A stretch of DNA of 24,180 nucleotides from a virus, in the IMG/VR virus record IMGVR_UViG_3300048592_000387, positions 1 to 24,180 of that record, one strand, 5' to 3'. Positions 7,828 to 21,865 of the stretch are shown piece by piece. The translations under genes were made by a program, and so were the position numbers. The notes under the pieces are model-generated. The model saw only the letters and a list, made by a program, of their open reading frames with translations, did no database searches and was not told the DNA's origin. Each line of letters begins with the position of its first letter. Position 1 is the stretch's first letter.

Positions 7828-9218
7828 TGCCCTACCCCCGTAACCGCGTCCGTTTGCAATAGCGCGGCCTGTTCTTCTTGCGAGTAGCCTAGCGCCGCAA
7901 GGGTCACAATCCCCTCAACGCCCAGCCCGGCCGCGCTTAGCGCCTGGACGATTGCCGCCCGCCGCTCCTCCACGGCCATCATATCAACGCGGCCGAATTC
8001 GGCCCATCGGGTTTCTATGTTTTCCCCCCGCGCAAGGTCGCGGCCGTTGCCGTACTCCTGATTCAGCTTGAGGGCGACGTACATAGCATCTTCCCACGCA
8101 TTGCCTAGCGCCACGGCCAGGCTGGAGACCTTCGCCACTAGCTGCCCATCGTCGGCGGCCTGAGTAGCCGCGCTTGCTATCTGCCCTGTCACTTGGAAGT
8201 ACTGTAGGGGGATATGCGACAGTTGCGCCATGCGGATAATAAAATCGTTACCGACCTCTCGCAGTTGGGCCAGGTCGCCGGGCGGGATGCTGCCCCAATG
8301 CGCGTCAGCGGCCGATACGCTCAACACGTCGCCCGCGTGGACTTCGGGCGCGTCGGCGGGCCATGACGCGCCGGTTAGCGTCAGCAGCGCCGCGCCGGTT
8401 TTGTCGGCGGCCTCTAGTAAGTCTAGCACGCTCTTATTCAGCGCCATTTGCAACGGCACAAGCGGCTCAATCTCCGATTCCCCCCAATTGCCGCCGTCGT
8501 CACGCCAGCGAAAGTGTACAACCGGGATACGGCCGATGGGGTTAGGAATGGGCCACGAGTAGCCCGCCTCCTCGAATGGTTCCCAGCCGTGGCCGCGCTC
8601 TATGTAGCGTTCTAGCCTGTCAGGCAAATACAAGTTTAGGCGGCGCGTCGTCTCTAGCTGGCCGCGTTCATCGAAGCGGCTTTCAGACCATACCTTTGAG
8701 GCCATTGTCATCTCGCGGCGCAAGTTGGAAAGGTAGTGAACCTTCATCCCCTCTACGCCATCATAGGCCGGTTCATGCGACAGGCGCGGCCGTCCGCTAT
8801 CGGCGTCCCATTCGACAAGGACGTAAGTATCGCCGTCTCTGGCCGTGGCCCGGTGGACTTGCGCCTGTAGCGCATCCATGCGGTTAGATGTCCACCACTC
8901 ATCAAGTAGACCATCATCGCCGCCGATACCCTCCGGCCCATCGAAGCCGATCACGGTTAGCCGCTCTACGCAAAGCTCGACCGGCATACGCAGATAGTTC
9001 ATCGACCACGGGAAACCGGCGTTAAGGCCAAGATACTCCCGTTGGCGGTCGGTCAACGGCACCTTGTGATCGCCGTCGTACCACTGGCGTAGGGCGACGT
9101 AATGGCGCTGCTGTTCCTCGTAATCGGCCGCCTGCCACCGGGCCAGGGCCAGCGAGGCGGGATTGACGGCCGCGTTAGCGCCGCGGCCGTTGGGCCGTTG
9201 AAAAACTGCGTTGAACAT
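7824..9218 (-). CDS. Phage portal protein (SPP1 gp6-like)
   Basis: A 464-residue protein starting MFNAVFQRPNGRGANAAVNP. Characteristic portal regions are visible: YVALRQWYDGDHKVPLTDRQ at the N-terminus, PWSMNYLRMPVELCVERLTV, a wing region with HEPAYDGVEGMKVHYLSNLR, PIPNPIGRIPVVHFRWRDDG, and the helical stem and clip region (PLVPLQMALNKSVLDLLEAA). The portal is the twelve-subunit ring at the head vertex used for DNA entry and exit. AGGAG is nine bases before the ATG, and the start overlaps the terL end by 44 bp. Length fits the SPP1/gp6 family (440-510). Confidence 0.9.
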   Translation of the reverse strand: MFNAVFQRPNGRGANAAVNPASLALARWQAADYEEQQRHYVALRQWYDGDHKVPLTDRQREYLGLNAGFPWSMNYLRMPVELCVERLTVIGFDGPEGIGGDDGLLDEWWTSNRMDALQAQVHRATARDGDTYVLVEWDADSGRPRLSHEPAYDGVEGMKVHYLSNLRREMTMASKVWSESRFDERGQLETTRRLNLYLPDRLERYIERGHGWEPFEEAGYSWPIPNPIGRIPVVHFRWRDDGGNWGESEIEPLVPLQMALNKSVLDLLEAADKTGAALLTLTGASWPADAPEVHAGDVLSVSAADAHWGSIPPGDLAQLREVGNDFIIRMAQLSHIPLQYFQVTGQIASAATQAADDGQLVAKVSSLAVALGNAWEDAMYVALKLNQEYGNGRDLARGENIETRWAEFGRVDMMAVEERRAAIVQALSAAGLGVEGIVTLAALGYSQEEQAALLQTDAVTGVGQ

Positions 9219-10533
9219 AGCTAGATACTCCTGCTGTGGGGATACCGCCGCCGCCGTCTAGATACATGACAAGATAGCGCATGGCGTCCATACCGTGGTC
9301 ATCGGTTTTAACCGGCACTTCATCGGCGGCGCGGCCGGCTTTCGTTTCCGGCCAGACGTAGCCGGGAAACTCCTTTTCCGTCGATACTGGCCGGCGCAAT
9401 TCTGCCAGGCGCGTATCCTGGCCTATTGTTGCATCGCGCACAATGTAGAGCCGGGGCTTGCCGTCGCCGGCCACCTTCAGCCGTTCGGCTACGGCGTCTA
9501 GCCCCGTTTTAATCCGCTTGTCAGCCGGCAGTGTCTTAATGCCATGTTCCTCCAGCGTGGCGCGGTCTTCGGCGTCATGGTCGGCTATTGTGGCCGTGAT
9601 TGTGTGGCCGCCAGTCATGGCGGTGATTTGCGGCGCTAGTTGGTTCACTGTCTGCTGTGACTGGTAAATCTCGCGTAGCAGGTAAATGCGGCCGTCGCTA
9701 TCTTCGCCCCACAGTTGGCATACGAACGGGTTAGAATAGCCGAAGTCGATCACCCGGTAGTGGCGCACCAGTGGCGGCACGGCCGCCGCGTCAATCAGGT
9801 GAATAGCCGGGTCGAATTCGTAGACCTGGCCGGCGCGGCCCACCCATAGCCCTAAACGGCCGCGTTTGTAGCGCACGCCGGTCATAGCGTCGAGCGCGGC
9901 CATTCTGTCGGGCGCGATTAACTCCCCGGTCGTTTGGTCAAATATCGTGGGGTTTTCCTCATGGCGCGATTCGATGAACACCACCCGCCGCCGCGTCTTA
10001 ATCCAGTGGTCGGGCACGTCGGGATTACAATCGCCCATGACCTGCGCGTAAGGCGCATGGCCCGCGCGGCCACTAGCGGCGCGGGTCAAGGCTTGCCACT
10101 CGTCTTCCGTCAACTCCTCGGCCTGATTGACGTAGATGAAATCATACTCAGAGGATAGCGTTTTGCCGGGGTTGTCCAGGCCGCCCGTTACCAGCCGCGC
10201 CCCATTAGGGTAGTCGTACCAGTCCGGGCGCGTGCCGCCCATGCGATCAACAGGGCAGCCGGGCGTGTCAGGCGGCGCGGGTAACACCTTGCGCTCGTAA
10301 GTGACAACGGCCGTCTGAATCAGGGATTGATACGTCTTGCGAACCATCAGCGCCCGCGCCCCGGCGTGCTTGCATAACAGCAGGTGCAGCCGATTTAGCG
10401 CCGTTATCGTCTTGCCCGTATCGTATGGCCCGCCGATGATGACTTCCGGCTCCCGGCAGTACATGAACCGGGCCGCGCCGCCGTAAGGGGTGAAGCCTGC
10501 TCGTGCTCGTTGGATAACGGCCGCGACGGTCAT
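9175..10533 (-). CDS. terL: Terminase large subunit
   Basis: A 452-residue packaging motor. The ATPase domain carries Walker A GGPYDTGKT (residues 34-42) and a Walker B-like YDFIYVNQAEELTEDEW. The coupling motif region follows as YAQVMGDCNPDVPDHWIKTR. The C-terminal RNase H-like nuclease shows the first Asp in VIDFGYSNPFVCQLWGE, a second in TATIADHDAEDRATLEEHG, and a third in TDDHGMDAMRYLVMY. It cuts and translocates genome DNA through the portal. It is coupled to the small subunit gene by an ATGA overlap (10530-10533). Length is typical. Walker B has Asn-Gln-Ala-Glu rather than Asp-Glu, as in several SPP1-like enzymes. Confidence 0.93.
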   Translation of the reverse strand: MTVAAVIQRARAGFTPYGGAARFMYCREPEVIIGGPYDTGKTITALNRLHLLLCKHAGARALMVRKTYQSLIQTAVVTYERKVLPAPPDTPGCPVDRMGGTRPDWYDYPNGARLVTGGLDNPGKTLSSEYDFIYVNQAEELTEDEWQALTRAASGRAGHAPYAQVMGDCNPDVPDHWIKTRRRVVFIESRHEENPTIFDQTTGELIAPDRMAALDAMTGVRYKRGRLGLWVGRAGQVYEFDPAIHLIDAAAVPPLVRHYRVIDFGYSNPFVCQLWGEDSDGRIYLLREIYQSQQTVNQLAPQITAMTGGHTITATIADHDAEDRATLEEHGIKTLPADKRIKTGLDAVAERLKVAGDGKPRLYIVRDATIGQDTRLAELRRPVSTEKEFPGYVWPETKAGRAADEVPVKTDDHGMDAMRYLVMYLDGGGGIPTAGVSSYVQRSFSTAQRPRR

Positions 10534-10874
10534 ACCTTATCCACGTCCACATTGACGATAGCGATGGTGAGCGGCCCGCCGTCCGGGCCGCCTAGCTCGA
10601 CAGTATCCTTTACCTTACCAAACGCCCGGTTCATTGCCTCCATTTGTAGCTTAGGGTTGTTCGACGTTATCCACTTCCGCATAAGCGCCTCGGCCATAGA
10701 TACCTTCTTGCCGTTGATCACAATAACGTTGCCATATTTATCTATAGCGTCCTCATGGAGCAGGCTCAACAACAACTCCTTAAGGTCGTCGGCCGTCTTT
10801 GGCCGCCCCTTTGTATTGCGGCGGGGGTCGTGCCCTTTCTGGAAGGGCTTGAGGTTTTCCGTTCGTCCGGCCAC
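10530..10874 (-). CDS. terS: Terminase small subunit-like protein
   Basis: A 114-residue protein with NLKPFQKGHDPRRNTKGRPK at the N-terminus, the 'FxxGxDxRRNxxGRPK' type opening common in phage proteins encoded directly before terL (DUF5681-like). A helical segment follows (ADDLKELLLSLLHEDAIDKY), then an oligomerisation-like part (ALMRKWITSNNPKLQMEAMN). It probably recognises phage DNA and loads TerL. The start codon is GTG at 10874. It follows the YhhQ-type gene by 20 bp, so the modification cassette and packaging genes share a transcript. Confidence 0.75.
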   Translation of the reverse strand: MAGRTENLKPFQKGHDPRRNTKGRPKTADDLKELLLSLLHEDAIDKYGNVIVINGKKVSMAEALMRKWITSNNPKLQMEAMNRAFGKVKDTVELGGPDGGPLTIAIVNVDVDKV

Positions 10875-10894: not shown

Positions 10895-11557
10895 CTAGTC
10901 GGCCGCTATAGCTTCATTGAGCGGCTTATCCTCTACGGTGTAGATAAGCGGTAGGCTAACCACTGTCACCGCCGCCTTATAAAGAATCTGCCCCGAAGCA
11001 ATCCGAGTGATGGCCTGTCCGAATGGCATACTCTCCGCGCCGAACAGCGGCGGGAGCAACACGAACGCCAGCGCCGTAAAGACGATGGAATCAACCGGCA
11101 GGCTAACGAAGTTGGAAGCGACAACCCGCGACCACTGGGGCGCACGCGGGAAGCGCGTTTTCCAGAAGTGATACACCTCCGTATCGGTCAGCTCGCTACA
11201 GAGTTCGGCCACGATGGAGCCGATAGTGATAGCGGGAACGATGGCAAAGATTGCCGACCACGCATCGCCCAGCGCAAAGAAGTCCGGCGACGGTAGGCGC
11301 GAGATGATGAACAGGTAGACGGCCAGAAGGACGTTAAGGACGGCCGCGGCGAAGACGGCCGTCCTTGCCCACTCGCGGCCGAGCCTCTTGTGGATCATGT
11401 CGCGCAGGGTGAAGGTCAGGGCGAAGATGAACGTCCCGCCCGGCATGACAACGCCGCCTATCTCTACCAGCTTAGTAGCTCCTACGTCGGCTATGGCCTG
11501 GGCCATAACGTAGGTTCCGATGAGAAGTACAATCACCCGAATGGTTTGTTTTGGCAT
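10895..11557 (-). CDS. yhhQ: Queuosine precursor transporter, YhhQ/QPTR (VUT) family
   Basis: A 220-residue membrane protein with about six hydrophobic spans (for example IRVIVLLIGTYVMAQAIADV, AVFAAAVLNVLLAVYLFIIS and DSIVFTALAFVLLPPLFGAE). It has the family hallmark FTLRDMIHKRLGRE between spans 2 and 3, and later SNFVSLPVDSIVF and SGQILYKAAVTV. YhhQ proteins import preQ0/preQ1, the 7-deazaguanine bases. GGAG lies five bases before its ATG, inside the queC 3' end, so expression is coupled. In a phage, a transporter next to queC, queF and a transglycosylase suggests topping up the precursor pool of the infected cell for DNA modification. Confidence 0.88.
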   Translation of the reverse strand: MPKQTIRVIVLLIGTYVMAQAIADVGATKLVEIGGVVMPGGTFIFALTFTLRDMIHKRLGREWARTAVFAAAVLNVLLAVYLFIISRLPSPDFFALGDAWSAIFAIVPAITIGSIVAELCSELTDTEVYHFWKTRFPRAPQWSRVVASNFVSLPVDSIVFTALAFVLLPPLFGAESMPFGQAITRIASGQILYKAAVTVVSLPLIYTVEDKPLNEAIAAD

Positions 11558-11559
11558 GG

Positions 11560-12231
11560 TTACTCCGACATGTATCCTGTGGGGTCTACTACCCCCGCCA
11601 ACTTAAATGCCTCGCGCCGCTCGACGCAAGTCCCGCACACGCCACAATGAGCGTCGCCGCCTTTGTAGCAGCTCCATGTATCCGCGTAAGGGACGAATAG
11701 CGCCGCGCCGAGCGCCACTATCTCGGCCTTACTCATGTGGACGAATGGTGCATAAAGGTGTAACCCGTCGGCCGCGTAGCCGTCCGTGGCGAAGCGCTCC
11801 ATACGGTCAAACGCCTCAATAAACTCCGGCCGGCAATCAGGGTAAATAGGATGGTCGCCCGCATGGACGCCGGTTGCCACCAATGACGCGCCTTCAGCCA
11901 CGGCAGCGGCATAGGCGATGACCAGCATGATCGCGTTCCGGTTAGGGACGACAGTGAGGCGCATATTCGGCGCAGCGTAGTGGCCTTCTGGAATAGCAAT
12001 ATCGTCTGTCAGTGCCGAGCCGGCCAAGAGCGGCGTTAATGATGACAGGTCTATGATGTCGTGCTGCGCCGATAGAGCACCGGCGCACTTAGCCGCATAC
12101 CCTAATTCCTGCTTGTGCCGCTGGCCGTAGTCGAATGACAACAGGTGAAGGGTGTGTCCTTGCGCCGCCAGCTGATAGGCCAGCGTGACGCTATCCAGCC
12201 CGCCGCTTAGCAGCGCGATAGCCTTACTCAT
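11560..12231 (-). CDS. queC: 7-cyano-7-deazaguanine (preQ0) synthase QueC
   Basis: A 223-residue enzyme that converts 7-carboxy-7-deazaguanine to preQ0 with ATP and ammonia. The PP-loop SGGLDS is at residues 9-14; LSFDYGQRHKQEL and VVPNRNAIMLVIAYA are family blocks. The C-terminal zinc site is intact: Cys188, Cys196, Cys199 and Cys202 in CYKGGDAHCGVCGTC. Length is that of cellular QueC. The ATG at 12231 has GAGG six bases upstream and overlaps queF by 8 bp. QueD and QueE are not in the window, so its substrate must come from the host or from genes elsewhere on the phage. Confidence 0.95.
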   Translation of the reverse strand: MSKAIALLSGGLDSVTLAYQLAAQGHTLHLLSFDYGQRHKQELGYAAKCAGALSAQHDIIDLSSLTPLLAGSALTDDIAIPEGHYAAPNMRLTVVPNRNAIMLVIAYAAAVAEGASLVATGVHAGDHPIYPDCRPEFIEAFDRMERFATDGYAADGLHLYAPFVHMSKAEIVALGAALFVPYADTWSCYKGGDAHCGVCGTCVERREAFKLAGVVDPTGYMSE

Positions 12232-12601
12232 TATCTGCCTCGGCCGTTACTGTCAGTTGTAACCCGCCGCGCACCTGCTGAGTAAGGGTTACTCGAATAC
12301 GGGCCGGAGAAAGCACCCTGTCAATATCGGCCATGATTTCAGCGGCTAGTGATTCCGCAAACTGCGCCGTATCTCTAAAGGTTTGGAGATAGAGTTTGAG
12401 GCTTTTCGATTCAACGCATAACAGGCGAGGCGAGTATTCAACCTCGATGTGGTAAAAGTCGGGTTGGTTGGTAACAGGGCAATGGGACGTAAGCTCACCG
12501 CTTGAAAACGTCACCGATTGCACAGAGGGCGCGGGGAACGTGTCTAGTGCTTTCGTTGGCGCGGAGTTGGGGCGACCTAAGTAGTTAAATTGCTGGCTCA
12601 T
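12224..12601 (-). CDS. queF: NADPH-dependent preQ0 reductase QueF (type I size), atypical His site
   Basis: A 125-residue protein of the unimodular QueF type, which reduces the preQ0 nitrile to the aminomethyl of preQ1. Visible: catalytic Cys41 and Asp48 in SHCPVTNQPDF, and the NADPH/substrate motif ESKSLKLY at 64-71. Glu83 corresponds to Glu97 of the Bacillus subtilis enzyme. The residue before it is Ala82 where the family usually has His (FAE instead of FHE). The start at 12601 is chosen because GGAG lies seven bases upstream and it begins MSQQFNYLGR like family members; the frame is open further upstream. It overlaps the upstream gene by 17 bp. The likely product is preQ1 for DNA insertion, assuming the enzyme is active. 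Confidence 0.9.
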   Translation of the reverse strand: MSQQFNYLGRPNSAPTKALDTFPAPSVQSVTFSSGELTSHCPVTNQPDFYHIEVEYSPRLLCVESKSLKLYLQTFRDTAQFAESLAAEIMADIDRVLSPARIRVTLTQQVRGGLQLTVTAEADNE

Positions 12602-13826
12602 TCTCTTGCTCCGATACAGCCGACCCCGCATACAGTTCGTTGACGGCCGCGCCCATAAACCCGAAAGAAAGAGCGAGCGCGGCATAGCGAACGTTGTTTA
12701 ACCTAGGGACATGTGGCAGCGATTCACGAATCGCTGCCACATGTCCCTGCGGGTCGCAATACTGGCCCCAGCGCGAGGCGACTAACTCGACGCTGTTATT
12801 GTCCAGACTTACAACGTCATCGCCTAGCGCGGCAAGATACTCCAATTGCTTCTTCCAACTTCCTCCCAACAAGTGGACGCGCCGCCCGCGGAACACGTCA
12901 ACAGATAGCGGTGTTCCGCCGTGCGAAGTGGGGACGGAGTACCCTAGCATAAACTTGGCGGGGATACGGTCAACGCAATCATACTTGGGGATGACAATCA
13001 CGTTCTGCGCGTGGGCAGATAGCTCCTCAGCCCAATCGAGCACTTGCTCTAGCGGGTAGTACTCAATACCGGCCGCCGCGCATTGATTAGGCGTCATAAT
13101 ATCGCGTACTGTAGCGTAGCGCGGGCGGAACTTTTCGACTGCTGCTAAGTGAACAGCATGATCGTATTTTGAGTATTCGTTATCTATAAACGCCACTTCG
13201 TGACGCCCGGTCAATTCGTAGGTGTAGGGGCATAGCCGGTAGTGGGCGCTGTTGATGCCATACTTCAGCCCTGCCTGAACGGCGAGGCAGCAGGTACAGT
13301 CGGCCATCTGTAGAGTATAGATAACGTCTATAGGCAACTGGCGGGGATTGGGCCTGGCTCCTTTCTCTACGCCTGAATCGAATTGCGATTCGTTCATCGC
13401 CTCCAACTCAAACGGCTGCCACCAGTCCGACAAGTCTACCCCGGCGGCTAAGTCCAGTTGAATCACGGCCGGGTCGAAGTCGAGCGACACCTGCCCGGCG
13501 CGGTTGTCGGCGTAGGCCAGTTCTCGCGCCTGTCCTGTGGGGTCATCTAAGTCTAGGTCTTCGCGCATCACGGCGACCAGCCTATCGCCCCGCGTGCGAA
13601 CAATCAGCACGTCGTCTAGCCCGATGTCGGCGGCGCTCTCCAGCGTCTTGTTGCCGGCGATCACCTTGCCGTTCTTGTCCAAGAGAATAGACCGCCCCGC
13701 CCCGAGCTTCTGTAGAGACTGGCGTATCATGTAAGCGCCGCGTTCGGTTCCCCTGTTGGCGTTGCGTTCGTCGGGTTGCAAGTCTGATAGTTTGATGGTT
13801 TCGTTCATAATGGGTTTTTGTTTCAT
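12585..13826 (-). CDS. ParB-like domain fused to probable 7-deazaguanine DNA transglycosylase (DpdA type)
   Basis: A 413-residue two-part protein. Residues about 7-140 form a ParB/Srx-like domain: IKLSDLQPDERNANRG, then NGKVIAGNKTLESAADIG, and AYADNRAGQVSLDF. Residues about 160-400 carry VAFIDNEYSKYDHAVHLAAV, RPRYATVRDIMTPNQC, NVIVIPKYDCVDRIPAKFML, GRRVHLLGGSWKKQLEYL and DDVVSLDNNSVELVA. This looks like an alpha/beta-barrel TGT-like enzyme of the phage DpdA group (related proteins, as I recall, are filed under DUF6610), which swaps guanine for a 7-deazaguanine in DNA. It heads the queF-queC-yhhQ operon. The start is either ATG 13826, with almost no leader, or ATG 13808. A palindrome lies at residues 360-374. 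The function call is inference from context and remembered patterns. Confidence 0.68.
   Translation of the reverse strand: MKQKPIMNETIKLSDLQPDERNANRGTERGAYMIRQSLQKLGAGRSILLDKNGKVIAGNKTLESAADIGLDDVLIVRTRGDRLVAVMREDLDLDDPTGQARELAYADNRAGQVSLDFDPAVIQLDLAAGVDLSDWWQPFELEAMNESQFDSGVEKGARPNPRQLPIDVIYTLQMADCTCCLAVQAGLKYGINSAHYRLCPYTYELTGRHEVAFIDNEYSKYDHAVHLAAVEKFRPRYATVRDIMTPNQCAAAGIEYYPLEQVLDWAEELSAHAQNVIVIPKYDCVDRIPAKFMLGYSVPTSHGGTPLSVDVFRGRRVHLLGGSWKKQLEYLAALGDDVVSLDNNSVELVASRWGQYCDPQGHVAAIRESLPHVPRLNNVRYAALALSFGFMGAAVNELYAGSAVSEQENEPAI
12705..12748. repeat. 44-bp near-perfect palindrome (21-bp arms, 2-base centre)
   Basis: The left arm 12705-12725 begins AGGGACATGTGGCAGC. Its exact reverse complement is the right arm 12728-12748, with only AC between them. 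It lies wholly inside the transglycosylase coding frame (residues 360-374) about 100 bp before the queF start. In RNA it would make a hairpin of about 20 bp. Confidence 0.9.
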
Positions 13827-13844: not shown

Positions 13845-13874
13845 AGTATAGCACAGCCGTTCGCTCTATGTAAA
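13845..13874 (-). promoter_or_regulatory. Leftward promoter for the modification/packaging operon
   Basis: On the minus strand TTTACA (13869-13874), 18-bp spacer, TATACT (13845-13850) with an extended -10 TG (TGCTATACT). The predicted +1 is near 13838, giving a leader of only about 12 bases before ATG 13826 with no Shine-Dalgarno. The element GTGCTATACT recurs at 13986-13995 on the same strand. Confidence 0.65.
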
Positions 13875-14362: not shown

Positions 14363-15736
14363 GTGCAATACGACGAATTTATCACAAATAAGGCGCAATT
14401 AGGAGGCCGGTATGGATTTGAGCCTATACACATGCCGTCTTACCTGTTCCCTTTTCAGGCCGCTCTAGTCGAGTGGGCAGTGCGCAAGGGACGCGCTGCC
14501 GTCTTTGCCGATTGTGGCATGGGCAAGACGTTGATCGAGATGGTATGGGCGCAAAACGTCGCCCGGCAGACCGGCAAGCCAGTCATCATCCTGACTCCGT
14601 TGGCCGTTGCCCCGCAGTTCATCCGCGAAGCTGAGCGCTTTGGCATCGACGCCGCGCGGTCACATCGGGGAGAGATAGCCGCCGAGATAGTCATCACGAA
14701 CTACGAGCGGTTGCACCTGTTTGACGCTGACCGCTTTGGCGGCGTCGTCTGTGATGAGTCTAGCATCCTCAAGAGTTTCGACGGCGTGCGCCGCAATGAG
14801 ATAACCGAATTCATGCGTCGCAAGGAATACCGTCTACTCGGCACGGCCACAGCCGCCCCAAACGACTACACCGAACTCGGAACGTCCTCGGAGGCTCTTG
14901 GCTATCTGGGCTACATGGACATGCTAGGCCGTTTCTTCACCAACAAGAAACGCACGGCTCGGCAGATGCGCGGGCGCTGGCGCGACGATGAGGACGGATG
15001 GCGCTTCAAGGGCCACGCCGAGCAACAATTCTGGCGGTGGGTCGCATCATGGGCGCGCGCCTTGCGTAAGCCGTCCGATCTAGGCTTTGCCGATGACGGC
15101 TTTAACTTGCCGCCGCTGCTCATTCAGAAGCATATCGTATCCGCCCGCGCCCCGCGCCCCGGTATGCTTTTCACCTTGCCGGCCATCGGTCTCCAGGAGC
15201 AGCGCGAAGAGCGGCGGCGCACTATCCGCGAGCGCTGCGAGATGGTTGCCGAATTGGTCAACCACACCGGGCAATCCGCCGTCGTGTGGTGTCACATGAA
15301 TGATGAGGGCGACATGCTACAGCGCCTCATCCCCGACGCCGAACAGGTTAGCGGCAAAGACGACGATGACGACAAAGAAGCCAAGTTCGGCCGGTTCTCG
15401 GACGGGCAAACCCGCGTCATTGTGACGAAACCCAAGATCGGCGCGTGGGGGTTGAACTGGCAGCATTGTCATCATCTGACGTTCTTCCCGTCCCACTCCT
15501 ACGAACAATACTACCAGGCCGTCCGCCGTTGCTGGCGATTCGGCCAACAATGCCCCGTCACGGTTGACATCGTATCAACCGAAGGTGAGGTAGAAGTCCA
15601 AAACAGCCTACAGCGCAAGGCGGACGCCGCCGCGCAGATGTTTACCGAACTCGTCGCCCACATGAACGACAGTATTTCTATTGACCGTTCCCAGTCATAT
15701 ACCGCCCCTATGGAGGTTCCCCAATGGCTATCCTAG
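14363..15736 (+). CDS. SNF2-type DEAD/DEAH-box helicase/ATPase
   Basis: A 457-residue superfamily 2 ATPase. Motif I is ADCGMGKT (residues 49-56), motif Ia IILTPLAVAPQF, motif II DESS (131-134) and motif III LLGTATAAPND. The C-terminal lobe ends with motifs V/VI, VIVTKPKIGAWGLNWQ and YQAVRRCWRFGQ. An acidic run (GKDDDDDKEAKFG) lies in the second lobe. Start is GTG at 14363 with TGAGG upstream. It overlaps the methyltransferase gene by 13 bp, so the two are co-expressed. It probably remodels or translocates on DNA during replication or together with the methyltransferase. No nuclease domain is seen. Confidence 0.88.
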   Translation: MQYDEFITNKAQLGGRYGFEPIHMPSYLFPFQAALVEWAVRKGRAAVFADCGMGKTLIEMVWAQNVARQTGKPVIILTPLAVAPQFIREAERFGIDAARSHRGEIAAEIVITNYERLHLFDADRFGGVVCDESSILKSFDGVRRNEITEFMRRKEYRLLGTATAAPNDYTELGTSSEALGYLGYMDMLGRFFTNKKRTARQMRGRWRDDEDGWRFKGHAEQQFWRWVASWARALRKPSDLGFADDGFNLPPLLIQKHIVSARAPRPGMLFTLPAIGLQEQREERRRTIRERCEMVAELVNHTGQSAVVWCHMNDEGDMLQRLIPDAEQVSGKDDDDDKEAKFGRFSDGQTRVIVTKPKIGAWGLNWQHCHHLTFFPSHSYEQYYQAVRRCWRFGQQCPVTVDIVSTEGEVEVQNSLQRKADAAAQMFTELVAHMNDSISIDRSQSYTAPMEVPQWLS

Positions 15737-16728
15737 ACCAGATGATTACCGACCGTTACGCGCTCTACTGTGGCGACTGCATGGAAGTCATGCCCAATTT
15801 GCCCGATGGCGCGATTCATTTCTCCGTCTATTCGCCGCCCTTCGCCGGCCTTTACCAGTACAGCAGTAGCGAGCATGACCTGAGTAATAGCCGCGACTAT
15901 GGTGAATTCATGACACACTATGAGTACGTCATCCGCGAGATCCACCGCCTGACCATGCCCGGCCGTATGACCGCCGTTCACTGCATGGACGTGCCGCGCT
16001 CCAATAACGGCCGGTCGGACTCCTTTATGGACTTCCCCGGCGACATCATTCGTTTGCATGAGCGCAACGGGTGGAGCTACACCGCCCGCTATCACGTCTG
16101 GAAAGAGCCGTTGACCGTCCGCAATCGGACGATGAAGAAAGGGTTGGCCCATCAGACCATTGTCGAGGATTCGAGCCGGTGCAGCGTGGCCGCGGCCGAT
16201 TATCTGCTTGTCTTTCGTCGAGACGGTGACAACCCCGTGCCCGTCGCCCACCCCGCCGGACTCAAGTCCTATGCCGGTTCCCGTCAAATGCCCGCCGATG
16301 TCCTCAAATACAAGGACTGGAATGGCCCTCAGATTGAGAACCGTTTCAGTCATTGGATATGGCGGCAGTACGCCTCAGCGTTTTGGGACGACGTGCGGCT
16401 TGACCGCGTTTTGCCCTTCCGTGAATCCCGCGACGAAGAGGACGAGAAGCACGTCCACCCGTTGCAATTAGACGTCATCGAGCGAGCCGTGGTCTTGTGG
16501 AGTAATCCTGGCGACCGCATTCTGACCCCTTTCATGGGCGTCGGCTCTGAGGTTTACGTGCCGGTGCAGTTGAATCGGTTCGGTCTCGGCATCGAACTAA
16601 AGCCAAGCTACTACCGGCAGGCGGTTAAAAACATGGCCGCTGTCGACGAAGACCAATACAACGACATGCCCCTATTCAGCCAGCCCGTCACAGAAGACGA
16701 AGAGGAGTTTGGGCTAGAGATAGCCTAA
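15724..16728 (+). CDS. DNA methyltransferase, beta-class N4/N6 type (SPPF motif)
   Basis: A 334-residue DNA methyltransferase with motif order IV before I. The catalytic motif SPPF is at residues 37-40 (SVYSPPFAGLYQY). The S-adenosylmethionine motif lies near residues 268-290 (RILTPFMGVGSEVYVPV, FGLGIELKPSYYRQAV). The Ser at the first position of SPPF points to N4-cytosine, though N6-adenine activity cannot be excluded. A long central region would hold the target recognition part. GGAGG precedes the ATG. Partnered with the SNF2 helicase and with no restriction nuclease in sight, it is probably an orphan enzyme that protects phage DNA. Target sequence unknown. Confidence 0.88.
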   Translation: MAILDQMITDRYALYCGDCMEVMPNLPDGAIHFSVYSPPFAGLYQYSSSEHDLSNSRDYGEFMTHYEYVIREIHRLTMPGRMTAVHCMDVPRSNNGRSDSFMDFPGDIIRLHERNGWSYTARYHVWKEPLTVRNRTMKKGLAHQTIVEDSSRCSVAAADYLLVFRRDGDNPVPVAHPAGLKSYAGSRQMPADVLKYKDWNGPQIENRFSHWIWRQYASAFWDDVRLDRVLPFRESRDEEDEKHVHPLQLDVIERAVVLWSNPGDRILTPFMGVGSEVYVPVQLNRFGLGIELKPSYYRQAVKNMAAVDEDQYNDMPLFSQPVTEDEEEFGLEIA

Positions 16729-19447: not shown

Positions 19448-19842
19448 CCACTTCCCCCACCCCACCCCATGACCTACGCTCCAATGACGACGCCGGCATC
19501 GCCGGGACGATTCACGAATGCGACCCGGCGGCCGTCGCCCGGCTCAAGGCGCTCATGGCTCAACAGCAGCCGCCGCGCTGGCAAGAGGCGCGACGACGCC
19601 AGTACAACGGCAGTCAGATTGTCGCCAATTTGCAACGCAGTGCCATTACCCACGCCGACCGCGTGCGGCTCGTCCTGAGTGACGAACAAATGACCGATGT
19701 CGAGCAACGCCGCGCCAATGGCGAGACGTGGGCCGGTATCGCCCGCGCTATGGGCTTAGTCCATACAACCCTCATGCTGGCCTACGCCCGGCAGACGCAC
19801 GCCGGGCAGCAGGCCGCCAAACAACAGGAGAAACCGCAATGA
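19444..19842 (+). CDS. Hypothetical protein with possible helix-turn-helix
   Basis: A 132-residue protein with a Pro-rich, probably disordered N-terminus and a charged Gln/Arg region (MAQQQPPRWQEARRRQYNGS). The second half has LVLSDEQMTDVEQRRANGET followed by WAGIARAMGLVHTTLMLAYA, a helix-turn-helix-like pattern with 'GETWAGIARAMGL' resembling resolvase/sigma-type DNA-binding helices. It overlaps dnaB in ATGA and the methyltransferase start in ATGA, so it is fully coupled. It could regulate DNA or act with the helicase; no family is claimed. Confidence 0.6.
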   Translation: MTTSPTPPHDLRSNDDAGIAGTIHECDPAAVARLKALMAQQQPPRWQEARRRQYNGSQIVANLQRSAITHADRVRLVLSDEQMTDVEQRRANGETWAGIARAMGLVHTTLMLAYARQTHAGQQAAKQQEKPQ

Positions 19843-20654
19843 GTAACCAACCGTTGCGCTATCTGTCGCTATTCAGCGGCATCGGCGGGATGGATTTAGG
19901 ATTTGATAGGGCCGGAATGGTGTGCGCCGGGCAGGTAGAGATAGATGACTATTGCCGCCGCGTGCTGGCGCGGCACTGGCCGGACGTGCCGCGCATGAAT
20001 GATGTGAGAGAGGTGCATGGTGACGAGTTTGGAGCAGTTGACCTTATTTGCGGCGGATTCCCTTGCCAGCCTCACAGTGTTGCCGGGCAGCAACGCGGCG
20101 CGGCAGATGACCGCAACCTCTGGCCGGAAATGCGCCGCCTTGTTGCCGCCATCCGGCCCGCTTGGGTTGTTGGTGAAAATGTGCCTGGAATCCGATCAAC
20201 TATCCTCGACGAGGTGGTATCTGACCTGGAAGGCAAAGACTACGAAGTCGGGATACTTGATTTTCCAGCTTGCGGCCTCCAGGCGTGGCACATCCGCGCC
20301 CGGATATACATCATCGCCTACCTACCCCACAGTCGCCGCGTCGGACTGGAAGGGGCGCAGCGGCAAGGGGCACATTGCCCGGCACGGCAACAAGAGGCTT
20401 TCGGACGCCATCTGCTATCCGACCGTGACGGCATCGGACGCGAGCGGTGGGCCGGGCAGCCAGGGGAGAGCGGGCGGCGACAACCTGAGGACCGTGATTG
20501 GTGGGCAGCTGAACCCGGAGTGGGTCGAGTGGTTCATGGGCTTCCCCATCGGATGGACAGAATTAAAGGACTAGGCAATGCCGTTGTCCCACAAGTTGCC
20601 GAGTGGCTGGGGCGGCACATCGTGGCCGCTGAAATGGAGGTAAACCCGCAATGA
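19839..20654 (+). CDS. C5-cytosine DNA methyltransferase
   Basis: A 271-residue Dcm-type enzyme, short for the family because the target recognition region is small. Motif I is SLFSGIGGMDLGF (10-22). Motif IV GGFPCQPHS has the catalytic Cys76. Motif VI ENV is at 113-115, motif VIII RARIYIIA at 153-160, and motifs IX/X include GLGNAVVPQVAEWLGRHI near 244-261. It methylates cytosine C5 in a specific DNA site (unknown), protecting from restriction. The ATG at 19839 is chosen for its ATGA overlap with the previous stop and AGGAG upstream. No endonuclease is adjacent. Over 550 bp of the gene is also open in the +1 frame (separate entry). Confidence 0.92.
   Translation: MSNQPLRYLSLFSGIGGMDLGFDRAGMVCAGQVEIDDYCRRVLARHWPDVPRMNDVREVHGDEFGAVDLICGGFPCQPHSVAGQQRGAADDRNLWPEMRRLVAAIRPAWVVGENVPGIRSTILDEVVSDLEGKDYEVGILDFPACGLQAWHIRARIYIIAYLPHSRRVGLEGAQRQGAHCPARQQEAFGRHLLSDRDGIGRERWAGQPGESGRRQPEDRDWWAAEPGVGRVVHGLPHRMDRIKGLGNAVVPQVAEWLGRHIVAAEMEVNPQ
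20017..20574 (+). CDS. Overprinted ORF within the cytosine methyltransferase gene (+1 frame)
   Basis: A 185-codon frame lies entirely inside the methyltransferase gene, offset +1. Its product contains LTVLPGSNAARQMTATSGRK, PPSGPLGLLVKMCLESDQLS, STRWYLTWKAKTTKSGYLIF and ends QLNPEWVEWFMGFPIGWTEL. From memory, this arrangement (PGS..AR.MT.TSGRK, LTWK, YPT.TASD, LNP.WVEWLMGFP.GWT) recurs in many phage and metagenome proteins, so it looks like a real family rather than chance. AGAGG lies upstream of ATG 20017 and is better spaced for GTG 20020. Its function is unknown, and the call needs conservation tests. Confidence 0.5.
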   Translation: MVTSLEQLTLFAADSLASLTVLPGSNAARQMTATSGRKCAALLPPSGPLGLLVKMCLESDQLSSTRWYLTWKAKTTKSGYLIFQLAASRRGTSAPGYTSSPTYPTVAASDWKGRSGKGHIARHGNKRLSDAICYPTVTASDASGGPGSQGRAGGDNLRTVIGGQLNPEWVEWFMGFPIGWTELKD

Positions 20655-20815: not shown

Positions 20816-21062
20816 GACACGACCCGTCTACCACGCCGACCTAGCCGCCCTGGCGACCGAACGTCGCCGGGCGCTCGTCTACGCCGCGCTCAACGACGCG
20901 GGCGCGGCTGAGGCCGGGCTATTGCGCCTCGTGGCTGAGGTTGCCCGGCTGCGCGACCTCTTGGCACTGGGCACGCTAGACGACGATGCGCTCTACGCCG
21001 TGCGGCGGCAGTTGGGCGACTACCGGCAGTGCGCTGAGGCGTTGGGGGTGAATCTGCCGTGA
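20808..21062 (+). CDS. Hypothetical helical protein
   Basis: An 84-residue protein starting MTETRPVYHADLAALATERR, almost wholly helical with heptad-like Leu/Ala (LLRLVAEVARLRDLLALGTL, LYAVRRQLGDYRQCAEALGV). The start at 20808 is chosen because GGTGA is suitably spaced; ATG codons at 20793 and 20796 sit too close to their GAGG. It shares GTGA with the next methyltransferase. Possibly a small coiled-coil adaptor; I do not recognise it. Confidence 0.55.
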   Translation: MTETRPVYHADLAALATERRRALVYAALNDAGAAEAGLLRLVAEVARLRDLLALGTLDDDALYAVRRQLGDYRQCAEALGVNLP

Positions 21063-21865
21063 ATAACTGGCGCATAGAGACGGGCGACGCTTTGCGGCTT
21101 ATCCCGTCACTTGAGGGCGGCGCGGTTAACCTTGTCGTTACGTCGCCGCCCTACCCCGGCCAGATGGGCAACGGGCAAACGGTAGGCACGTGGCTGGAAT
21201 GGCTAACCGCTATCACCGCCGCGCTGCTGCCCAAGTTGGCCCCGGCGGCCGTCGTGGCTCTTAACGTGACATTCAAGCGCACCGACGCGGGATGGTTTGA
21301 CACTCGTCTTTTTACCGCCATTCCCGCTATCCTGGAGGCTGCCGGGCTGCGCTGCCATGACACCTACATTTGGCACAAGACGAACGGAGCGCAAAACGGG
21401 CCACTGGCCTATGCCGACGCGCCCGGCTATGAGGTCGTCTACGCTTATACCAATGCCGAGCGGCCCGGTAACGTGACGTTCAATCCTCAGCGCAAGCCCT
21501 ACGCCGCCAAGAGCATCAGCAGCAGCGGTGCGGCCCGCATCGGCTACGGGCGCACGAAAGAACCAAACGGCGACGGGGCGCGGCAAACGAACGTCCTAAG
21601 CCTCGCCACGCACGCCAGTGACGGCAACCGGCCGCGGGCGCGGGGCGTGTCATTCCCGCTGGAATTGCCGCGCCGATTCATCCGGCAGTACACCCGCCCC
21701 GGCGATCTGGTACTGGACTTCTGCGCGGGCGTCGGGACAACCGGCCGCGCCGCGCTGGAATTGGGACGGCGATTCATCGGCTTCGAGCTTGACGCAGAAG
21801 AAGCCGAACGGGCGCGGCAGTGGCTGGCCGCCGCGCCGACGCCACTATTGTCAGTAACGGAGTAA
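21059..21865 (+). CDS. DNA methyltransferase, SPPY type (probable N4-cytosine)
   Basis: A 268-residue methyltransferase with catalytic SPPY at residues 29-32 (VVTSPPYPGQMGNG) and SAM motif I near 219-245 (LDFCAGVGTTGRAALELG, RRFIGFELDAEEAERA), the beta-class order. SPPY is typical of N4-cytosine enzymes. A middle region includes YIWHKTNGAQNGPLAYADAP and the target recognition part. The GTG start overlaps the prior stop in GTGA. It is the third methyltransferase in the window, with no cognate nuclease nearby, suggesting anti-restriction use. Target unknown. Confidence 0.88.
   Translation: MNNWRIETGDALRLIPSLEGGAVNLVVTSPPYPGQMGNGQTVGTWLEWLTAITAALLPKLAPAAVVALNVTFKRTDAGWFDTRLFTAIPAILEAAGLRCHDTYIWHKTNGAQNGPLAYADAPGYEVVYAYTNAERPGNVTFNPQRKPYAAKSISSSGAARIGYGRTKEPNGDGARQTNVLSLATHASDGNRPRARGVSFPLELPRRFIRQYTRPGDLVLDFCAGVGTTGRAALELGRRFIGFELDAEEAERARQWLAAAPTPLLSVTE

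Follow-up and report, generated by a model that had tools for sequence, protein, structure and literature searches.

What does a ParB-like domain fused to a DUF6610 domain do at the head of three genes of queuosine-base metabolism and directly before the terminase genes of a virus? This arrangement was found in the IMG/VR virus record IMGVR_UViG_3300048592_000387, taken here over its entire length (24,180 bp, classed as linear; hereafter, the window); it probably represents part of a tailed phage genome. Four genes lie head to tail on the minus strand, coding for a ParB-DUF6610 fusion, QueF, QueC and a QPTR/YhhQ transporter, and run into terS/terL. The place, strand and order agree with a previous reading made from the sequence alone (the sequence-only reading), which had regarded the genes as a 7-deazaguanine DNA-modification cassette. 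The analysis supports this view: the cassette probably modifies the phage's own DNA, DUF6610 swapping guanine for a 7-deazaguanine, the ParB-like half recruiting or targeting the enzyme, and restriction being blocked as a result. The gene set, the QueF, QueC and QPTR families, the conserved residues, the predicted barrel and the co-occurrence and exchange of modules were obtained directly. The components of the cassette are the following:

12585..13826, minus strand: ParB-DUF6610 fusion, 413 amino acids (phrog_620 and PF20314 matches; AlphaFold2 model; invariant aspartates)
13350..13826, minus strand: ParB-like domain of the fusion, exchangeable module, residues ~6-145 (identities to other phage ParBs)
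12585..13349, minus strand: DUF6610 domain of the fusion, predicted DNA-guanine transglycosylase TIM barrel, residues ~160-400 (PF20314, motif order, Foldseek)
12224..12601, minus strand: QueF, unimodular preQ0 reductase, 125 amino acids (TIGR03139; start from ribosome-binding site and overlap)
11560..12231, minus strand: QueC, preQ0 synthase (TIGR00364; SGGLDS and zinc site; PDB 2pg3)
10895..11557, minus strand: QPTR/YhhQ queuosine-precursor transporter (TIGR00697 and PF02592, both above cut-off)

The fusion and QueF genes overlap by 17 bp and the QueF and QueC genes by 8 bp; gaps of 2 bp and 20 bp separate QueC from QPTR and QPTR from TerS, respectively. For QueF, the start at 12601 (an ATG after GGAG; MSQQFNYLGR...) was preferred over the start of the longest open reading frame at 12685. 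Neither QueD nor QueE was found on the 24,180-bp contig by family search and no FolE was seen on it, in line with what had been noted before. Since the record is a fragment, these absences hold for the contig and not for the whole phage.

DUF6610 as a predicted DNA transglycosylase

The C-terminal domain of the fusion had been read as TGT-like. Residues 184-362 were identified as PF20314 (DUF6610; E-value 7e-37; 127 bits against a gathering cut-off of 27), a family that Pfam annotates as of "unknown function". No match to PF01702, nor to self-built hidden Markov models (HMMs) of DpdA1 and TGT, was obtained for this domain. The PF01702 result is uninformative alone, because a search of all records with this family, in which no cassette was matched, missed the known DpdA of Mycobacterium phage Rinkes too. 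The self-built DpdA1 HMM, made from 10 DpdA1 proteins, was used instead; it recovered all annotated controls (including Rinkes and Knocker) and Streptococcus virus MS1, and not one DUF6610 protein. The DUF6610 HMM, in turn, gave no significant match to the DpdA2 of phage nt-1 (YP_008125322; 1.0 bit). The family is thus DUF6610, apart from TGT, DpdA1 and the nt-1 DpdA2, and what stands of the TGT-like assignment is the fold, the motif order and the genomic context.

A TIM barrel was predicted by AlphaFold2 from 25 relatives, with a predicted local distance difference test score of 85.8 for the full length and 91.1 for the barrel. When viral structures were searched with Foldseek (BFVD), the matches outside DUF6610 and ParB included a "queuine tRNA-ribosyltransferase" from Arthrobacter phage Mufasa8 (E-value 3e-6), a protein of Cellulophaga phage phiST (6e-6) and R9TGF0 of nt-1 (464 amino acids; 1.4e-4), which was identified with DpdA2 YP_008125322 by the phage and the 464-residue length. 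In the PDB, the full-length model matched TGT 4gh3 at rank 10 (1.6e-3).

Residues D167, D215, D242, D342 and H318 and the pair G321-G322 are invariant across the 25 relatives. The DUF6610 motifs follow the order FIDND / VRDIM / VIVIPK / GYSVPTS / VHLLGGS / VVSLDNN, parallel to the phage DpdA order DSGAF / LDVIGD / VPxxHFG / GGMVG / HGLGVTS / SVDSS. D215, D242 and D342 run in this DpdA-like order, in a register backed by a weak hhalign alignment of DUF6610 with DpdA1 that placed VVSLDNN on SVDSS (E-value 0.07). By this comparison D342 is the candidate, and probable, nucleophile, and D215 and D242 would probably be the general acid/base and base-recognition residues. The predicted barrel, the aspartate order and the genomic context make the DUF6610 domain a likely DNA transglycosylase.

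The fusion gene also contains, in frame, a perfect palindrome of 44 bp (12705-12748; 21-nt arms, 2-nt spacer), which as RNA has a folding energy of -42.7 kcal/mol (z -8.5). In the relatives this position holds a stretch of about equal length but with no relation in sequence, and a search of the viral contigs gave no second copy. A template-switch scar, a regulatory hairpin and an assembly artefact are the candidate explanations.

Supply genes in the relatives of the cassette

When viral contigs were searched, 28 relatives were recovered, many of them with the same neighbours, so the cassette is not a chance arrangement. These viral and phage loci (L-numbers) were sorted by whole-record searches for QPTR, QueF, QueC, QueD and QueE together with local annotation:

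Full synthesis, QueF-QueC-QueD-QueE-FolE after the fusion: L010, L012, L015, L017, L018, L021 (uncultured phages)
Full synthesis, named viruses: Mycobacterium phages Rinkes and Knocker; HVTV-1
QPTR without QueF, QueC, QueD or QueE, seven separate contigs: L001/L002, L003, L007, L008, L014, L016 (DUF6610 without ParB), L032
QPTR and QueF: L019, L022, L023/L024
QPTR, QueF and QueC, no QueD or QueE: the window, L020
Everything plus QPTR: HCTV-1

In the six full-synthesis loci of uncultured phages the DpdA1 HMM found no DpdA within ~8 kb, which leaves the fusion as the only candidate for base insertion within that distance. The seven contigs with DUF6610 and QPTR and none of the four Que genes tie DUF6610 to a queuosine-base substrate. 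QPTR and the de novo genes avoid each other: both were present in one locus, QPTR only in 12, de novo genes only in 8 and neither in 4 (Fisher p 0.0036, a value that ignores the relatedness of the loci and includes some short contigs). A tree-based independent-pairs test of the same association had too few pairs for significance.

The coexistence of import and last-step synthesis in one cassette, also proposed in the sequence-only reading, was supported; it is not peculiar to the window, since L020 carries the same set. The catalytic half of the window is nearest to import-type proteins (64-66% identity to L032, L001 and L003), while the best match to its QueC comes from the full-synthesis locus L015 (60-61%; QueF, 44-51%). 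The simplest reading would be a hybrid, an import-type cassette that received QueF and QueC together between its fusion and QPTR genes.

Some relatives differ in layout. In L016 (5626-8825) the ParB-less DUF6610 gene stands directly after a gene for an SNF2 helicase 39% identical to that of the window, and before QPTR. In L020 the fusion gene is followed by another gene (8777-9898) that weakly resembles it (24.5%, 3e-4) and is not matched by the DUF6610 HMM. In L022 (151-2688) and L023 (3915-7422), QueF and QPTR are on the strand opposite the ParB-DUF6610 gene, and L022 has weak helix-turn-helix matches after ParB.

HVTV-1 and other haloviruses

In HVTV-1 DNA, dPreQ1 accounts for ~30% of G, and dPreQ0 was not detected (PMC6884629). 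The same 2019 study reported no DpdA in this virus and suggested that the host supplies a DpdA or that a transferase had escaped detection (PMC6884629). In our searches HVTV-1 gp69 was identified as PF20314 (E-value 2.7e-56); its gene adjoins FolE and QueE within a FolE/QueE/QueD/QueC/QueF stretch, and we propose gp69 as a candidate for the DNA-inserting enzyme of HVTV-1. The related viruses HCTV-1 and HCTV-5 also have PF20314 in a QueF/QueC/QueD/QueE/FolE region. This group is like the window in that linkage and, for HVTV-1, in its dPreQ1-rich DNA, if the prediction for the window holds; it differs in having no visible ParB, ~20% identity, an archaeal host and the full de novo set. HCTV-1 and HCTV-16 share YhhQ with the window.

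A DUF6610-like gene was also observed near the DNA polymerase gene in Halorubrum phage HF2 (HrrHF2_365; L100 4776-5690) and ~40 related haloviruses. No Que genes were seen within the 10 kb viewed at the HF2 locus, and the DNA of such viruses may be modified with a host-made 7-deazaguanine.

Base supply, product and candidate host

QueF scored 96 bits against TIGR03139 (cut-off 86.9) and retains the catalytic Cys69 and Asp76, Glu111 and the NADPH motif ESKSLKLY; His96 is replaced by Ala. QueC scored 189 bits against TIGR00364 (cut-off 150), matched PDB 2pg3 (E-value 1.8e-27) and keeps SGGLDS and the four-Cys zinc site CYKGGDAHCGVCGTC, with a C-x7-C spacing where x8 is given in PMC13329287. The QPTR/YhhQ protein reached 93.6 bits against TIGR00697 (cut-off 50.95) and was likewise above cut-off for PF02592. 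Members of this family differ in the substrate transported (PMC11130926), and the protein of the window is proposed, by family membership, to be a putative preQ0/preQ1 importer. QPTR relatives were recognisable in only 4 of 50,697 phage records, and the import version is therefore nearly unseen in cultured phages.

In the proposed pathway, import by QPTR would raise the preQ0/preQ1 supply of the cell, QueC would convert cellular 7-carboxy-7-deazaguanine (CDG) to preQ0, and QueF would reduce preQ0 to preQ1. The DUF6610 half would then exchange guanine in DNA for the base by TGT/DpdA-type chemistry, the ParB-like domain would recruit the enzyme to DNA or select sites, and the resulting dPreQ1, or another 7-deazaguanine related to it, would block restriction enzymes. 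We infer the chemistry of the exchange, the nature of the base, the part played by ParB and the protection. QueF points to preQ1, and preQ1-DNA is the best prediction for the product.

A different product of the same cassette, namely dPreQ0, dADG, dG+ (if QueF works on DNA or is an amidinotransferase) or the imported base unchanged, was also considered. QueF is missing from the seven QPTR-only relatives, whose enzyme must take whatever base arrives; moreover, QueF and QueF-like proteins are poorly separated by sequence (PMC6884629) and His96 is replaced here. On the other hand, the window protein has the ESKSLKLY of NADPH-dependent QueF and a TIGR03139 score above cut-off, and HVTV-1, with QueF and DUF6610, has mainly dPreQ1. 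Another base is thus considered unlikely.

Regarding the host, L032 is a 4.2-kb contig in a Chloroflexota metagenome-assembled genome (MAG), and a fragment from genome G319 belongs to the same class. These suggest a Chloroflexota host, as a lead only, given that short contigs can be misbinned. Both of these related candidate-host MAGs contain TGT and a PF02592 (VUT/QPTR-family) transporter and QueC was not found in them, so that both look like salvagers. The TGT and the transporter would suit metabolic helpers that raise host tRNA queuosine for phage translation, the substrate of the fusion being tRNA or neither tRNA nor DNA: in bacteria, QueF, QueC and QPTR serve tRNA queuosine, and phages with Que genes and no DpdA have been proposed to boost tRNA queuosine (PMC6884629). 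Such a role is very improbable in view of the ParB-like domain, found elsewhere beside DNA-modifying enzymes, of a gene order like that of Rosebush-type phages with modified DNA, and of the presence of DUF6610 in HVTV-1, a virus with modified DNA. Additionally, QueA and QueG were not seen in the cassette, although no family search was aimed at them.

The ParB-like half

Residues 6-111 of the fusion match the ParB-like phrog_620 (E-value 2.2e-13). This half is 42-50% identical to the ParB halves of L007 and L032, 47% identical to a free ParB beside a glucosyltransferase gene in Porphyromonas phage005, and 49% identical to the ParB-like domain of an Aphanizomenon phage CL131 gene that is annotated as a DNA methylase and adjoins a C5 methyltransferase. 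ParBc fusions to methyltransferases have been reported, with their function called unknown (PMC12783734). The fusion of L035 (genome G319) has a catalytic half 79-81% identical to that of the window and a ParB half of another subtype, which is 26% identical to the window's, at noise level, and nearest to L015, L019 and L020 (35-38%). A third kind of ParB is common to L001 and L009 (60% identical), and the DUF6610 proteins of L016, L025, L026 and HVTV-1 have none. The ParB half therefore swaps independently of the catalytic half across the relatives.

The sequence-only reading had assigned this domain to targeting or clamping of the enzyme. The CTP-binding motif of ParB clamps is of the GERR type. 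In the window GNKT occupies this position, and the barrel follows directly, without a C-terminal dimer domain; the motif speaks against a CTP clamp. Since the ParB halves are exchanged among the fusions and shared with other DNA-modifying enzymes, a role as an interchangeable adaptor or targeting module is favoured, by sequence comparison, over a clamp.

Points weighed against the proposed activity

Several observations weigh against a DNA-modifying role of the cassette. No sequence search ties DUF6610 significantly to TGT or DpdA, and the hhalign probability of DUF6610 against TGT was <1%; this test has little power at such a distance, because undisputed DpdA1 against TGT was equally weak in the same set-up (E-value 0.05). 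A PDB sequence search with the family alignment gave weak matches only, ParB among them. With Foldseek, unrelated TIM barrels ranked above TGT in the PDB for the full-length model, and no TGT was among the top 50 for the barrel-only model. The fold evidence is therefore supportive, not specific: the barrel and the phage DpdA-type matches speak for a relation to TGT/DpdA, and the insignificant hhalign result and the unspecific PDB matches do not. HVTV-1 gp69 has no visible ParB and shares only ~20% identity with the window protein, and H. vallismortis may provide its own DpdA (PMC6884629). The replacement of His96 in QueF belongs here as well, as does the lack of a visible source of CDG, the substrate of QueC, with QueD and QueE absent and both candidate-host MAGs without QueC. 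Finally, no data on DNA chemistry were found for any ParB-DUF6610 phage.

Part of these data would fit DUF6610 as an accessory barrel (a hydrolase, lyase or base-processing enzyme), with the base inserted by a host enzyme or as a modified dGTP. Significant TGT homology is lacking, other TIM barrels score equally well in the PDB, and Rinkes and Knocker carry a DpdA as well as the DUF6610 fusion. This explanation is rather improbable, as no second inserting enzyme lies near the fusion in six de novo operons that are otherwise complete, the invariant aspartates stand in DpdA-like order and phage DpdA-type proteins are among the closest viral barrels. Furthermore, the Rinkes fusion is paired with QueF, which is consistent with two enzymes for two bases; perhaps Rinkes and Knocker, with the fusion and a separate DpdA, place two bases in one genome.

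Comparison with known systems

The DNA transglycosylase reading of DUF6610 was compared with known systems. Rosebush DNA contains dPreQ0 (PMC6884629). In Rosebush-type Mycobacterium phages ParB is gene 1 and DpdA gene 2, and Phantasmagoria, of this type, has a free ParB, DpdA, QueC, QueD, QueE, FolE and terminase in that order. The functions follow one another in the window as they do there, from ParB at the start to the terminase at the end; the window differs in that ParB and the enzyme are fused, DUF6610 replaces DpdA1, QueF is added and QPTR replaces QueD-QueE-FolE.

Gene 1 of Mycobacterium phages Rinkes, Knocker and Funsized, annotated merely as "ParB-like nuclease domain protein", is a ParB-DUF6610 fusion followed by QueF within a Que operon. 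Its catalytic half is 39% identical to that of the window, and these phages have, unlike the window, a separate DpdA, the full de novo genes and no QPTR. Gene 2 of Rinkes (L004 1299-1691), annotated as GTP cyclohydrolase, is QueF (PF14489; TIGR03139 match), and gene 2 of Knocker (L081 1310-1702) has the same position and the same kind of label.

The DpdA and DpdA2 proteins of CAjan, 9g and nt-1 and bacterial DpdA are, like DUF6610, linked to preQ0 genes, and may resemble it in the TIM barrel, which is predicted for DUF6610, and in the order of the aspartate motifs. Streptococcus virus MS1 (QueC, QueD, QueE, FolE, Vut_1, DpdA) also has a QPTR-family transporter in a DNA-modification operon, but with a DpdA1-type enzyme and full synthesis. 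In MS1 this transporter gene (L082 2749-3420) stands directly before DpdA, an independent link between QPTR and phage DNA modification. In the bacterial Dpd system, the TGT paralogue DpdA works with the ParB-like DpdB (PMC12839542; PMC6392294). That system is a restriction-modification island with DpdC and effectors. Among the selected window proteins that were scanned, a generic helicase similarity to DpdE was recognised beside the ParB-like domain, and no DpdC was seen.

Implications for phage DNA modification

Phage 7-deazaguanine DNA, ParB genes adjoining DpdA and occasional phage YhhQ were already known (PMC6884629; PMC8651126). As far as our searches reach, the assignment of DUF6610, the ParB fusion heading a cassette, the import-only and hybrid versions and the independent swapping of ParB are new. 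A broader reading, which we hold tentatively and at less than an even chance, is that DUF6610 constitutes an unassigned class of DNA-guanine transglycosylases, including that of HVTV-1, which in uncultured phages would be part of a plug-in system of swappable ParB targeting and swappable supply (full synthesis or a transporter). Import-only phages would then decorate their DNA with a scavenged micronutrient. If this is true, their protection from restriction depends on the availability of queuosine precursors, since the base is scavenged from the environment.

This assignment would give PF20314, a domain of unknown function, a specific and testable job, and would point to a candidate for the enzyme that went undetected in HVTV-1, a virus very rich in dPreQ1, in the 2019 study. 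Phage DNA hypermodification cassettes would be modular both in how the base is supplied and in how the enzyme is targeted, and some phages are predicted to rely for DNA protection on an imported vitamin-like base. Moreover, the exchangeable ParB domain offers a clue to site choice by phage DNA-modifying enzymes.

Other features of the window

The cassette is bordered by the following features:

10530..10874, minus strand: terminase small subunit, downstream border of the cassette (weak DUF5681; position before TerL; L008 match)
9175..10533, minus strand: terminase large subunit (phrog_2 / phrog_5653)
13845..13874, minus strand: promoter-like site TTTACA-18-TATACT with extended -10, directly upstream of the fusion gene (consensus scan only)

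The small subunit was called from its position and a 47% match to the L008 gene that follows QPTR. Scanning the window for Rfam families and tRNAs gave no match, and no preQ1 riboswitch was found. On the divergent early strand (plus), the stretches 14363-16728, 19728-20654 and 21059-21865 code for an SNF2-like helicase with weak DpdE similarity and for three DNA methyltransferases, two of the N4/N6 type and one C5 enzyme. A CmoX-type carboxymethyltransferase was ruled out for the latter, which has PCQ and not SPPC. With the helicase and the three methyltransferases on this strand, the phage probably has several kinds of DNA modification.

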